Assembly: GCA_014384555.1 (NCBI GenBank) | Contig: JACNFR010000040.1 | Location: 1 to 55,384 of the forward strand | Length of the DNA: 55,384 nucleotides | Direction of reading: 5' to 3' | Origin: Candidatus Nitrosopumilus sp. | GTDB lineage: Archaea; Thermoproteota; Nitrososphaeria; Nitrososphaerales; Nitrosopumilaceae | Shown: piece after piece, positions 49,642 to 55,384 of the stretch | Position numbering within the stretch: position 1 is the first letter of the stretch | Layout: each line of letters starts with the position of its first letter | Notes under the pieces: generated by a model | The model's database searches: none | What the model saw: the letters and a program-made list of their open reading frames with translations, nothing else | What the model was told of the DNA's origin: nothing | Translations under genes and position numbers: made by a program

Positions 49642-49734
49642 CGGGCTTGGAGGGCTTCGATCCCTCGACCTGTAACTTAGGAGGCTACTGCGCTATCCAT
49701 GTTGCGCGTCAATTTGACTCTGCGCTACAAGCCC
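49642..49734 (-). tRNA. tRNA-Arg (anticodon CCT) with an 18-nt D-arm intron
   Basis: The acceptor stem pairs GGGCTTG (49734-49728) with CAAGCCC; the anticodon stem is GTAGC/GTTAC around CTCCTAA, giving anticodon CCT (Arg, codon AGG), and the T arm is GAGGG-ATCGAAG-CCCTC. Total is 93 bases; standard arginine tRNAs need about 75. The D arm has GCGC twice before its loop, leaving 18 extra bases (around AGAGTCAAATTGACGCGC) that must be removed for GCGC to pair with GCGC near 49690. That intron is not at the usual anticodon position. The anticodon loop is uninterrupted. Confidence 0.85.
49703..49724 (-). other. Noncanonical intron in tRNA-Arg, boundaries ambiguous by four bases
   Basis: The 18 extra bases lie within this interval; the flanking GCGC copies (49722-49725 and 49704-49707) make several equivalent boundary choices. 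The segment contains GTCAA-A-TTGAC, a short palindrome that suits a bulge-helix-bulge substrate for the archaeal splicing endonuclease. Confidence 0.65.
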
Positions 49735-49780
49735 AGCAAAAAAAACATTCTTAATTATTTAATGTGTTTGGGTAAGTACC

Positions 49781-49808
49781 AAAAATATCCCGTAAAGACC
49801 GTATTTTT
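49781..49808. repeat. Inverted repeat between tRNA-Arg and integrase
   Basis: AAAAATA (49781-49787) and TATTTTT (49802-49808) form a perfect seven-base inverted repeat with a 14-base spacer, and CGTAAAGACCGTA inside has an imperfect direct repeat. It lies in front of the integrase gene, so it could be an arm-type integrase or regulator site, or a weak hairpin. Only position supports this. Confidence 0.3.
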
Positions 49809-49838
49809 CTTTGAGGTTTTATGTGAAACTCACGTAAT

Positions 49839-49843
49839 GGAGG
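49839..49843 (+). promoter_or_regulatory. Shine-Dalgarno site (GGAGG) for the integrase
   Basis: GGAGG ends seven bases before the ATG at 49851. Many genes in this window start without such a site, so its presence fixes the start and marks the integrase as organised differently from its neighbours, consistent with an imported element. Confidence 0.6.
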
Positions 49844-49850
49844 TTATACA

Positions 49851-50998
49851 ATGACTAGCTTCCTTTCAAAGAAAAAAGATAATCAATCATATGAAGAAAA
49901 ACTTGCAACAGTTCCGGAACGTACTAGACAAAGCAAGTTGTATGCAATAAAGGTCTTTGAAGATTTTGTTTGTGAAAAATACAACAACAGAACTGTCGCT
50001 GATATAGTTGAAGAATTACAAGCAATTAAAAAAACACAAGAGCAGGAAGCCTATGATGAAGCACTTTATGGAATGCTTCAAGACTGGATAAATTGGAATG
50101 AGAACAGAGGACTGGGAAATTATACAATTAGGATATTATTTTCCAATCTACGCAAGTATCTCTTTCATATAGGAATTAAAACATATGAGCAAGACATTAA
50201 AGAAATTCTAAGATTTGGAAAAAAGACTAGAGAGGAAAGATATCCTTTATCTCAGGATATTTACAGACAAATTGTAAATGGTTTTGCTCAATCAGATAAC
50301 AGGCATTGTTTCTGACTCTGGGTTCATCTGGAATGCGAATTGGTGAGGCAATAAATTTAAAGAAAAAAGACCTTGACTTTACAACAAAACGAATCAAGGT
50401 AAATGTTCCTGCAACTACAAAGACTAGAGCCGGAAGAACTACATACATTTCAAAAGAAGCAGAAGATTATCTTAGACCACTAGTTGACAAACTAGAAACA
50501 GAAGATTATATTTTTGCAAGAAAAAATCAAAGACTACTAGACCCATCAGTAAGAAAATCACTTACTAGATTACTAGATAGAATAGATTTTACAGAAACAT
50601 ACCAGTCTAACAACTATAGAAAAATAACATCACATAGTTTTAGGGCCTATTTCTTTACAAAGGCTGCAAGAAAGCATGGTGAAAACTATGCACATCGAAT
50701 AATAGGTCATGGAGGATATTTGATGCAATATGATAGAATGACGGAAGATGAAAAACTAGAGATGTATCTAGAACTAGAGCCTGATTTGACCATATTTGAC
50801 CAAACAAAAAATGAATTAGAGATAAGTCGATTACGTGACAAAGTAGAAGAGATTAATGAGTTAAAACAAGAAGTTCAGAAATTACGTGAAGTACAAGCCA
50901 AATCAGACAAAAAAATACTCGAAACTATGAAGAGAAGTAATCTTGACCTGATTTTTGATGGATGTTTTATTACCTTGGCACCTGTGAAGAATTTATGA
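49851..50998 (+). pseudogene. Tyrosine integrase, split by a frameshift near 50300
   Basis: Two overlapping frames, 49851-50315 and 50306-50998, together make one integrase of about 380 residues. The first holds the SAM-like core-binding domain. The second holds the catalytic domain with the first Arg (SGMRIGEAINL), HSFR, GHGG and the nucleophile Tyr in LEMYLELEP or nearby YDRM, and a C-terminal coiled coil. All catalytic groups survive, but the break needs a one-base shift at about CATTGTTTCTGA. The tail overlaps the ATG of the propeller gene. It may be a dead integrase, a frameshifted gene or a sequence error. Confidence 0.8.
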
Positions 50999-52641
50999 AA
51001 TTCATTTTTTCTATCTTTCTTTTAGCAATTATTGCAAGTTTTAGTTTCTCAATTATCTATGCTGAAGAATATCCCTTAATGGTTAGTGTTTCACCTGATG
51101 GTGAACCTGGAAATGAAAATAGCTATCTTGCTACTTTGAGTTCAAATGGAGCTTATGTGGTATTCATGTCAAAGGCCAGTAACTTAGTTGATGATGATAG
51201 AAATCATTCTATGGACATCTTTGTTAGAGACATAGTTAACAGGGAAACTTATCTGGTTAGTATCACTTCGGATGGCTTACAAAAAGCTCATGAGAGTAAC
51301 TATCCTTCTATAAGCGGAGATGGAAATCTTGTCACATTTTACACTCGTGCTGATTTTGATTCTGATGATGTAAATCAACATGATGATGTCTATTTACATA
51401 ACATTAGAACAGGTGAAACAATTTGGGTAAGTGCTCCAATACCTAGTTCACAAACTGGGGAAAGTAATCAACCCCAAGGCCATGGTGCTCCTTCCGTAAT
51501 TAGTGAGAATGGGGAACAAGTTTTGTTTAGATCAAATTCACGTGATTTGGGATCAGAATCTGATGGGAATTTATTTTTGTTTGATGTAGATAGTCGTACT
51601 ACAACAGCTTTAGATGTATACGCATCTGATTTTGACATTAGTGGAAATGGTAAAAAAATTGTTTTTACTGCAGAAAGAGAATCGGATGAATTCCCTGACA
51701 TGCTACCAGGAAATTTGTTTGTATATGATGTAGATACTAAAAAAATTATTTGGATTAGTAAACCCATTGATGAATTTAACATTCAAGCAACCAGTGATTT
51801 AGGAACCTTAGATTTTGATGGAAAATTTTTAGCATTTAGATCAGGCGTACCTAATTTAGTAGAAAATGATGAGAATAATGAAACTAGTTTCTTCTTACAT
51901 GATTTACAAACATCTCAAACAAAATTAATCAGTATCAGTCCCGAAGGAGATGCTTTTTTTGCTAACAGCCATGTAGATATCAGTGGAGATGGAAAATTTG
52001 TATTACTTCCAGAACGTGGTTTATTAGTATATGATATTGAGCTTGAAAAAATTATTCAATTAACTACTTTAGGCAGTAGTGATGGTGGAATAAATTTTGA
52101 TGGAAGTCTTGTTGCTTCTACACAACATAACATGAATGATTCTCAATTCTCACAAGTTTTTGTTACTACTAATCCTCCACCTGATGAAATTCTTAGACAG
52201 CAAGCAGAGATAGAAGCTGAACATGAAGCTGATGAAAAAGAATTAGCTGCACTTGCAGAAGCAGAAGACGAACGTGAGGAAGCAGAAAAACAAAAAGCTA
52301 TATCTGATGCATTGGCAAAAAGAGAGGCAGAAAGGGCTGCAGAAGCAAAGCGTGACTTAGAAGAGAAAAAATCAAAGATTGCATCATTTGTAGATAAGAC
52401 TAAAGACCCACAATACTATGTTGACAGATACAACAATGAACCAAAATACAAAGAATGGTTTGATGAAAATTATCCTCAATACGATTCTATTGAGCAGGCA
52501 GTAGGATTAGAATTAACTGAAAAAATTCCTAGTTGGGTTAAGAACATCTTTGGATGGTATGCTGCAGATGAAGTTTCAGAAGAAGAATTGCTTAATGCGA
52601 TAAAATATCTGATTAATGAAAAGATTCTGATAGTGAATTAA
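50995..52641 (+). CDS. Secreted TolB-like beta-propeller protein with C-terminal coiled coil
   Basis: From the ATG at 50995 (sharing ATGA with the integrase stop) the 548-residue protein has a signal peptide (MKFIFSIFLLAIIASFSFSI), then four to six TolB/WD40-type propeller repeats recognised by YPSISGDGNLVTF, FDISGNGKKIVF, LDFDGKFLAF and VDISGDGKFVLL. A Glu/Ala-rich coiled coil follows at about 405-470, and the protein ends with a small helical region. It probably binds a surface ligand. It lies in the accessory part of the window. Confidence 0.8.
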   Translation: MKFIFSIFLLAIIASFSFSIIYAEEYPLMVSVSPDGEPGNENSYLATLSSNGAYVVFMSKASNLVDDDRNHSMDIFVRDIVNRETYLVSITSDGLQKAHESNYPSISGDGNLVTFYTRADFDSDDVNQHDDVYLHNIRTGETIWVSAPIPSSQTGESNQPQGHGAPSVISENGEQVLFRSNSRDLGSESDGNLFLFDVDSRTTTALDVYASDFDISGNGKKIVFTAERESDEFPDMLPGNLFVYDVDTKKIIWISKPIDEFNIQATSDLGTLDFDGKFLAFRSGVPNLVENDENNETSFFLHDLQTSQTKLISISPEGDAFFANSHVDISGDGKFVLLPERGLLVYDIELEKIIQLTTLGSSDGGINFDGSLVASTQHNMNDSQFSQVFVTTNPPPDEILRQQAEIEAEHEADEKELAALAEAEDEREEAEKQKAISDALAKREAERAAEAKRDLEEKKSKIASFVDKTKDPQYYVDRYNNEPKYKEWFDENYPQYDSIEQAVGLELTEKIPSWVKNIFGWYAADEVSEEELLNAIKYLINEKILIVN

Positions 52642-52737
52642 ATTCTATACTTTACTTTTTTTGTTCTGAAGTCAGTAATTGAATATCTAGATATTGTGCT
52701 ATTTATGATATTGTGAGAAATAAGAAAGAAAATGAGG

Positions 52738-53013
52738 CTAGTTTTTCATTTCTTTATCTGGAATTAACATGCTTACTGCAGTAGTATAGCAGTTTGAAAG
52801 CACAGGCTGCAGATTTACCAAGTCTTCTAGTATTGCACGTTTTCTTAAAGAATCATTTTCTTGGGAAAACAGCTTCCAGAATTCCTTTTCAGCTCTTTCT
52901 AGAGTTTTGATTCTCTGAGTGTATTGTGGCCAAATTCCCTCTCTTTGGATTTTGGATTTTAGTTCACCAGATGATAGTTGTGAATTATCATCTTTGATAT
53001 GTTTGGTTGACAT
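52738..53013 (-). CDS. Small helical protein, unknown
   Basis: The 91-residue protein is mostly helical and charged, with a Trp-rich middle (GIWPQYTQRIKTLERAEKEFWKLF). It has no Cys motif, signal or membrane helix. It lies alone between the propeller gene (convergent) and a winged-helix gene. A role cannot be read. Confidence 0.55.
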   Translation of the reverse strand: MSTKHIKDDNSQLSSGELKSKIQREGIWPQYTQRIKTLERAEKEFWKLFSQENDSLRKRAILEDLVNLQPVLSNCYTTAVSMLIPDKEMKN

Positions 53014-53139
53014 GCTAGAATAATACGTTGATTTGATATTTAGCTATTTCCTAACAATTAATTATGAATTGATAGAATTCACATTAAGTAATTAATTCTT
53101 CAATTTCAGATTTTATGATGTTTAGTGATTTGAACTAGA

Positions 53140-53574
53140 TTATTGTGCTGGGATTTCATTAATCATAGTACGTGTTAACTTGAGTTCTGTTTTGAGCATT
53201 GTCTCTCTATTATATAATTGATCTATTGTCTCTAATTGTTTTCTTAACAGTGCATTTAATGTTCTATTTCTTATTTGTGATGTAGCTGCTGTCTTACTTC
53301 TAAGACTGACCATCTTTTGCATCAGATAAATTATTGAGCTATTTTTGTTAATTTTGTAAGTTGGTGATTTTCCAACATTGCCAGATTGTAAAATCATGTC
53401 ATTGGCTAATAATTTATCAATTTCTTTGAATGCAGTAGTACGGCTCATACCAATACCCTCAACTAATTCAGGTACAGTAAACTCATTTTTTGGAAAAGTC
53501 ATGAAAAAATCAACCATTTTCATACGTGGGGAATCTCCATAAAGTGCAATTATACCTGATTCTGCTTCAGTCAT
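53140..53574 (-). CDS. Winged-helix transcription regulator
   Basis: The 144-residue protein has an N-terminal winged helix at about 14-75: VDFFMTFPKNEFTVPELVEGIGMSRTTAFKEIDKLLANDMI with the recognition helix GMSRTTAFKEID, followed by a wing (GKSPTYKINKNSS). A C-terminal helical region at about 85-140 probably dimerises. It is divergent from a small winged-helix-like gene, with 77 bases between starts, so it may control itself and its neighbour. Confidence 0.78.
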   Translation of the reverse strand: MTEAESGIIALYGDSPRMKMVDFFMTFPKNEFTVPELVEGIGMSRTTAFKEIDKLLANDMILQSGNVGKSPTYKINKNSSIIYLMQKMVSLRSKTAATSQIRNRTLNALLRKQLETIDQLYNRETMLKTELKLTRTMINEIPAQ

Positions 53575-53651
53575 ATTATGAATAGTATAATCAATATACT
53601 TAAAGATTAATCTCGAATAGTATCATTTGAGTACTATTGGTTAAAAGCACA

Positions 53652-53918
53652 ATGACTGATATTGAGATACAAGATACAATCTTGTTTTATTTATGGCAAG
53701 AAGGTGCATGGGGTGAAGATTATACTAATTATGAAAAGATGAAAAGACGTATCGGAATGGTTGTAAAAAATAATGGTAAAAATACAGATAAGCAATTAAA
53801 AAAATTAGTTAATGATAGATTAGTTTTGAGATTAAAGCAAGGCAGAACATACTCATTAAATCATCTTTATAGGCAAACTATTGAACAGAGATTAATTGCT
53901 GCTGAATTTCCCATCTAG
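53652..53918 (+). CDS. Small winged-helix-like protein, unknown
   Basis: From ATG 53652 the 88-residue protein reads MTDIEIQDTILFYLWQEGAW, then a helix-rich region KQLKKLVNDRLVLRLKQGRTYSLNHLYRQ that looks like the recognition helix and wing of a winged helix. A TTG at 53637 adds five residues. It shares an upstream region with the regulator facing away from it, including a TATA-like string near 53599. Confidence 0.55.
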   Translation: MTDIEIQDTILFYLWQEGAWGEDYTNYEKMKRRIGMVVKNNGKNTDKQLKKLVNDRLVLRLKQGRTYSLNHLYRQTIEQRLIAAEFPI

Positions 53919-54009
53919 TTTAACAAAAACATGATCGTTTATCTTCTTAGGCACATTCAGAGAATTTCAAATAATTGGAAAATACTTAGAGTCTATAAAA
54001 CAGAATTTA

Positions 54010-54017
54010 TTTTATAC
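54010..54017 (+). promoter_or_regulatory. Candidate TATA box for the HEPN-motif protein
   Basis: The TTTTATAC-like string just before 54018 lies about 25 bases ahead of the ATG at 54039. This spacing fits a leaderless archaeal transcript and supports ATG 54039 over the upstream TTG at 54027. Confidence 0.45.
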
Positions 54018-54038
54018 TAAGTTTAATTGATTTTTAGA

Positions 54039-55142
54039 ATGGCATCAATCTTTCTTTCTTTCCAAGTTCCAATAGAAAGTCATGATTTTGGTCATAAGAA
54101 GAAGGGACCATTATTTCACAGATGGCTTCCAAATGGAGAAATAGATGCAATCACTTTAGACACACAGGTTCCACATACTACGCTAAATGTCTGGTTTGAC
54201 AGACGAGGTTATGTTAGAGATGGTGGGATTGAATTTGATTCTAATCGTAAAGAAGTAGATGAATCAATAATGAAAAGACAAGGAGTTTTAGGTGCAAGTC
54301 GATTATTTGGTTCTCTAAAAATTGATTGTATTACAGATAATCAATTGAATGCTTTAAAACAGGAAAAAATAGAATCGGATGAATATCAAGAGATAGGAAA
54401 AAAATTTGTAAAAGCAGTATATGAACCAGTTTCTGAATTTATTTACTTACTTAAAATAAGATTCGGTCAATATTGGCTTCGAGACATAAAAAAATGGGAT
54501 TCTTCTAAACAAGATATAGGAAGTTACTGTAGATTTTTCTTTATTAAATGGTCAGAGGATGAAGGTCAAACATGGCAAGATTATGAACCAAAATACGAAC
54601 TTCCAACAATGAAATTAACTCTATCAAGCATTAATGATTTTAAATCATTTATCACCAAAAATGATTGGGAAAATTTTCGAGAAATATTAAAAAAATATCA
54701 ACATCATTCAATTGCAGAAGTTACTCTTGCTAGAACACATCAATATCTTGATCAAAATGACTTACGACATGCAATTATTGAAGGAGCCACAGCAGTGGAA
54801 TTAGCCACAGCTGAATTTTACAATATGAGACTAGATAAAGAATCAAAATTGAAAAAAGAACTAGGAGGATTTTGGAATCTTTCATCATCGTCTCAACTAG
54901 TTGCTATAGGTACAGCTGTGGAAATTCCAGAAAAAAAATTAGAAGAAACTATTGAAGTGATTGACATGAGACATAAAGTGGTGCATGAAGGAGTAGAGCC
55001 TGAAAATACAATTATTTCAAAAATTTATTCATTATTGCATACTGTTGCTATTCTTTTAGATGAGCCAAAATTCAAATTTCCATCAGCAAATTCTGGTAAT
55101 GCATGGATGACAGATGAACAGTGGGAAAAAGGACATCGTTAA
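54039..55142 (+). CDS. Large protein with C-terminal HEPN-type RxxxxH motif
   Basis: From the ATG at 54039 the 367-residue protein has an N-terminal region of unknown fold (about 1-215), then a helical domain with RHAIIEGATAVELATAEFY near 245-265 and MRHKVVHEG near 315-323, the R-x4-H pattern and context of HEPN RNases and related ApeA-like proteins. HEPN domains cut RNA in toxin-antitoxin and abortive-infection systems. No cognate nucleotidyltransferase or antitoxin is visible in the window. The region with an integrase supports a defence or mobile origin, as inference. Confidence 0.65.
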   Translation: MASIFLSFQVPIESHDFGHKKKGPLFHRWLPNGEIDAITLDTQVPHTTLNVWFDRRGYVRDGGIEFDSNRKEVDESIMKRQGVLGASRLFGSLKIDCITDNQLNALKQEKIESDEYQEIGKKFVKAVYEPVSEFIYLLKIRFGQYWLRDIKKWDSSKQDIGSYCRFFFIKWSEDEGQTWQDYEPKYELPTMKLTLSSINDFKSFITKNDWENFREILKKYQHHSIAEVTLARTHQYLDQNDLRHAIIEGATAVELATAEFYNMRLDKESKLKKELGGFWNLSSSSQLVAIGTAVEIPEKKLEETIEVIDMRHKVVHEGVEPENTIISKIYSLLHTVAILLDEPKFKFPSANSGNAWMTDEQWEKGHR

Positions 55143-55294
55143 TTTTTATTAGTCAAATTTATCAATATTAGAAAAAACTCTTGAAGTTTCAATGTATGGA
55201 TTTTTGTTCCCAATCAACAGCCAAATACAGAATAAAGTATTAACAACTTAGACTTATTCGAAACCTTTTTAGCTGATTATACGTAATACTATTC

Positions 55295-55384
55295 ATGAAA
55301 ACAGTAGTTAATCAATACAAAATGGGTACTCTTAATTATTTAAGCGTAATCAAGATTATCTTTAATCATGTTTTGAATTTTTTT
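55295..55384 (+). CDS. Possible partial gene running off the window
   Basis: An ATG at 55295 opens a frame (MKTVVNQYKMGTLNYLSVIK) that stays open for 30 codons to the window end. A TATA-like GATTATACG lies about 20 bases upstream. Its length here is too short to judge; composition is not distinctive. Confidence 0.3.
   Translation, partial: MKTVVNQYKMGTLNYLSVIKIIFNHVLNFF

Follow-up and report, generated by a model that had tools for sequence, protein, structure and literature searches.

Archaeal tRNA introns are removed by a splicing endonuclease that cuts in two 3-nt bulges with a 4-bp helix between them (PMC4090602). In Thaumarchaeota, this enzyme is of the alpha2-beta2 type and has been linked to unusual introns (PMC4090602; PMC3218864). 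The initial annotation of the locus described here stated that introns away from position 37/38 are known in archaea but are rare. The first part holds, but such introns are less rare than was implied: tRNAscan-SE 2.0 found 673 noncanonical versus 1533 canonical introns in 217 archaeal genomes (PMC8450103). The same work, which includes a Thaumarchaeota-specific model, reported 107 noncanonical introns in Thaumarchaeota (PMC8450103), so the intron between positions 15 and 16 of tRNA-Arg(CCU) that we describe is a member of a described class. Like other noncanonical thaumarchaeal introns (BHB or HBh'), it is short, it lies outside 37/38, it has a 4-bp central helix between 3-nt bulges along with an intron hairpin, and its host has a splicing endonuclease. 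It shares its cut geometry, and presumably its enzyme, with the canonical archaeal introns at 37/38, but it lies in the D loop, so that its exon helix comes from the D stem and not from the anticodon stem-loop. Red algae and nucleomorphs also have tRNA introns in the D arm (PMC4090602), but those rely on a eukaryotic enzyme and we do not imply homology. Position 15/16 is absent from the examples in the part of a review that lists such sites, although that list is open (20/21, 22/23, 25/26, 29/30, 30/31, 45/46, 53/54, and others; PMC4090602). In the open-access literature, we found no paper that names an Arg(CCU) 15/16 intron.

The window that we analyzed is the whole 55,384-nt stretch of DNA from Candidatus Nitrosopumilus, a marine ammonia-oxidising archaeon. 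The named public contigs that share the sequence belong to Nitrosopumilus. The gene and its upstream box are:

49642..49734, minus strand: tRNA-Arg(CCT) gene, with a precursor of 93 nt and a predicted mature length of 75 nt, CCA not encoded (Rfam RF00005, own-genome scan)
49749..49762, minus strand: AT-rich box TTAAATAATTAAGA upstream of the tRNA, a putative TATA region and a copy of an attachment site; conserved upstream in relatives and repeated at 55330-55343

Rfam RF00005 matches the gene from end to end (50.2 bits, E = 7.5e-8), which bears out its initial identification, and all of the excess length falls in the D loop. On the minus strand, the gene reads GGGCTTGTA GCGC AG, then the intron AGTCAAATTGACGCGCAA, then CATGGATA GCGC A, and it continues with GTAGC CTCCTAA GTTAC AGGTC GAGGG ATCGAAG CCCTC CAAGCCC G. 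As first noted, the other arms are normal (acceptor, 7 bp; anticodon, 5 bp; T, 5 bp). The anticodon loop is CTCCTAA, which gives the anticodon CCT, and the predicted mature RNA is a cloverleaf with a CCU anticodon. Among the 35 tRNA genes that we found in this genome (1.39 Mb, 95% complete), it is the only one for Arg(CCT); the remaining Arg genes are TCT and GCG. A second, normal Arg(CCT) gene, which the initial annotation had named as grounds for giving up its reading, was looked for and is not among the 35. The gene is easily missed. ARAGORN, run on the window, did not call it, though it did report the window's other tRNA. As a general tRNA finder drops this gene, annotations may wrongly list the Arg(CCU) tRNA as missing.

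The insert and the elements around it are:

49702..49719, minus strand: 18-nt intron AGTCAAATTGACGCGCAA in the D loop, at 15/16 (from the BHB cut rule and from orthologues without the intron)
49722..49725, minus strand: 5' D-stem strand GCGC (positions 10-13), the exon half of the central helix H (sequence, pair counts)
49719..49721, minus strand: 5' splice-site bulge AG^A (sequence, cut rule)
49708..49718, minus strand: intron hairpin h', GTCA-AAT-TGAC (fold, compensatory changes)
49704..49707, minus strand: intron copy of GCGC, partner of D-stem positions 10-13 in the precursor (fold, covariation in one relative, L047)
49701..49703, minus strand: 3' splice-site bulge AA^C (sequence, cut rule)
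49690..49693, minus strand: 3' D-stem strand GCGC (positions 22-25), partner of 10-13 after splicing (fold)

These elements form two 3-nt bulges that flank a 4-bp helix, plus a helix on the intron side (AGA / GCGC-GCGC / AAC / GTCA-TGAC). Archaeal splicing endonuclease cuts between the second and third bases of each bulge. When folded computationally, the 93-nt unspliced RNA does not form a cloverleaf, while for the 75-nt form a perfect cloverleaf is the minimum-energy structure and accounts for 61% of the ensemble. The original count of 18 bases that must be removed for the D arm to fold was exact. Arg(TCT) of this genome has exactly the D loop that is left after the predicted cuts, AGCATGGATA. 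The repeated GCGC copies are also as first reported, and the intron copy pairs with the D-stem strand in the precursor. The repeat exists because the D-stem strand in the exon needs two successive partners, the intron copy in the precursor and the 3' D-stem strand once splicing has taken place. The motif is relaxed and HBh'-like rather than a canonical BHB because helix H has a non-standard outermost pair in 7 of 19 distinct aligned rows and because no outer exon helix h is evident.

We propose that in the precursor, the 5' strand of the D stem would pair with the GCGC at the 3' end of the intron, adjoining the intron hairpin. The tRNA-splicing endonuclease would then cut at AG^A and AA^C to release 18 nt, and RtcB would join the exons. 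The freed D-stem strand could then re-pair with the GCGC at positions 22-25 to give the canonical D arm of the predicted mature RNA. The genome encodes both enzymes. One splicing-endonuclease gene (on contig C82) matches both tRNA-endonuclease Pfam domains, and there is a single gene for the RtcB ligase (on contig C29). By sequence, the endonuclease is closest to the archaeal tRNA-splicing endonucleases of PDB chains 2cv8, 3p1z, 3ajv, and 2zyz, which we take to be crenarchaeal enzymes. It is the only endonuclease gene that the tRNA-endonuclease Pfam models detected in this genome; they did not detect the structural beta subunit that is expected of a heterotetramer. Judging from the sequence, the 18-nt intron is almost certainly excised by the cell's normal tRNA-splicing enzyme.

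The intron is present in about 30 congeners, with 85-100% identity over the gene. Almost all of the congeners with a match have the same gene and insert, as do most of the sampled Nitrosopumilaceae. Its position is conserved across the genus and the family, so the D-loop insert is not due to chance. Within Nitrosopumilaceae, the intron is 17-22 nt long; its helices are maintained, whereas its loop is freely variable. The hairpin shows compensatory changes (GTC/GAC to GCC/GGC and to ATC/GAT), as does the central helix (GCGC/GCGC to GCGT/ACGC, in L047). Across the 19 distinct rows, 94.7% of the pairs are formed, there are 6 double-change cells versus 0.9 in shuffles, and the covariation score is above that of all 500 shuffles. 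Sliding the partner strand by 1-3 columns destroys the pairing and sharply lowers the covariation score; this control accounts for the relatedness of the rows, whereas the shuffle control does not. Also, when the cut rule is applied mechanically, each of the 44 distinct intron-bearing rows is left with the canonical D loop of 10 nt.

Intron-free orthologues occur in at least 8 lineages (G025, which is of the same genus; several g33 genomes; g31; g39; family f2; G050; f14; f8-g51; and f10). In these genes, the junction is exactly AG-N-(A/T)TGGA, and the D loop has the same length and pattern as in the predicted spliced form. G025 retains the same upstream promoter box, so its gene is the orthologous locus. 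The proposal of a D-arm intron is thus supported by the identical junction in intron-free orthologues, by the covarying BHB helices, and by a 10-nt D loop in every row. Shifted splice registers were considered and rejected, as neither junction has the base identity that sliding would need and the intron-free orthologues fix the junction. We are highly confident that 49642-49734 is a functional gene, and the sole gene, for tRNA-Arg(CCU), and that it is interrupted at 15/16 by an 18-nt archaeal tRNA intron that is enzymatically spliced.

Could this be a disrupted, unexpressed pseudogene, with AGG codons read by Arg(TCT)? That tRNA is present in the genome, archaea frequently lose genes for tRNA-CNN (PMC6000648), and the promoter is directly adjoined by an integrated element. 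However, the stems are fully paired, the exons are nearly invariant over the genus while the intron covaries, and 60 of 95 congeners have the AT-rich upstream box (with at most 3 mismatches) adjoining the gene, all of which makes a pseudogene very improbable. It is even less credible that the insert is retained in a mature tRNA with an enlarged D arm: although the insert alone is predicted to form a stable hairpin, the D stem and this hairpin are in competition for GCGC, the orthologues without the insert are continuous exactly at the predicted junction, removal leaves a D loop of exactly 10 nt in all rows, and the bulge geometry is kept at both ends.

Given a spliced intron, there is the question of its history. 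Genomes of family f8, which by our inferred label is Nitrososphaeraceae-like, have introns of 18-31 nt with the same position and bulge geometry but of unrelated sequence. Tentatively, the 15/16 intron might be ancestral to Nitrosopumilaceae and Nitrososphaeraceae, with precise losses many times (in G025, g31, g33, g39, g51, and others) and turnover of its sequence around a fixed bulge-helix-bulge; we regard this as possible rather than probable. Alternatively, the intron may have been gained more than once. If it is ancestral with losses, then the locus would lend itself readily to studying why tRNA introns persist, and also whether they affect the integration of mobile elements at this site. 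Intron-bearing and intron-free orthologues within one genus also offer a clean natural comparison for the loss of a tRNA intron. Two other observations concern related genes. A congener (G021, contig C73) has a second copy (L071) that keeps the D-loop intron and has the anticodon loop CTCCGGA, as for Arg(CCG); either the gene was duplicated and its anticodon then apparently switched, or the copy is due to contamination. Elsewhere in the order, the Arg(CCT)-like genes of other families (L132-L139) have no D-loop intron and have inserts of roughly 10-15 nt just after the anticodon.

The element beside the gene is 5,581 bp long and lies between 14-bp direct repeats of TTAAATAATTAAGA (49749-49762 and 55330-55343; element span 49749-55343). 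The AT-rich promoter box of tRNA-Arg(CCT) serves as its attachment core, and what lay immediately upstream of the box has been replaced through integration. Relatives show the empty site, with uninterrupted sequence upstream of the tRNA. The gene for its tyrosine integrase (49851-50998) is split over two overlapping frames of 154 and 230 amino acids, while most of the best homologues in congeners have a single frame of about 360-390 amino acids; the split reflects either a true frameshift or a mistake in the assembly. Integrated elements of thaumarchaea use short attachment sites in tRNA genes (including those with introns) and in intergenic regions, and all but one of those that target tRNA genes hit the 3' part of the gene (PMC6563490). 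A site in the promoter region of a tRNA is therefore a variation, and the present element shows that integration there is possible at a tRNA gene with an intron. Where homologues of the integrase element were looked at in other genomes, a tRNA gene was present at 1 of 7 loci. A search of plasmids gave no match. The element's cargo includes a small protein whose one match, a weak one, is Ren-like (53140-53574; PHROG 142, E = 9e-5) and a 371-amino-acid protein without a family (54027-55142).

Two other tRNA genes in this genome are unusual. A tRNA-Val(CAC) (L027:1501-1596, on contig C71) has an insert of about 21 nt in the variable region, with TGCG/CGCA pairing beside a hairpin, and this is likely a second noncanonical intron. 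A 115-nt tRNA (L029:712-826, on contig C62) has a long insert around the anticodon stem and is possibly an elongator Met tRNA with one or more introns.
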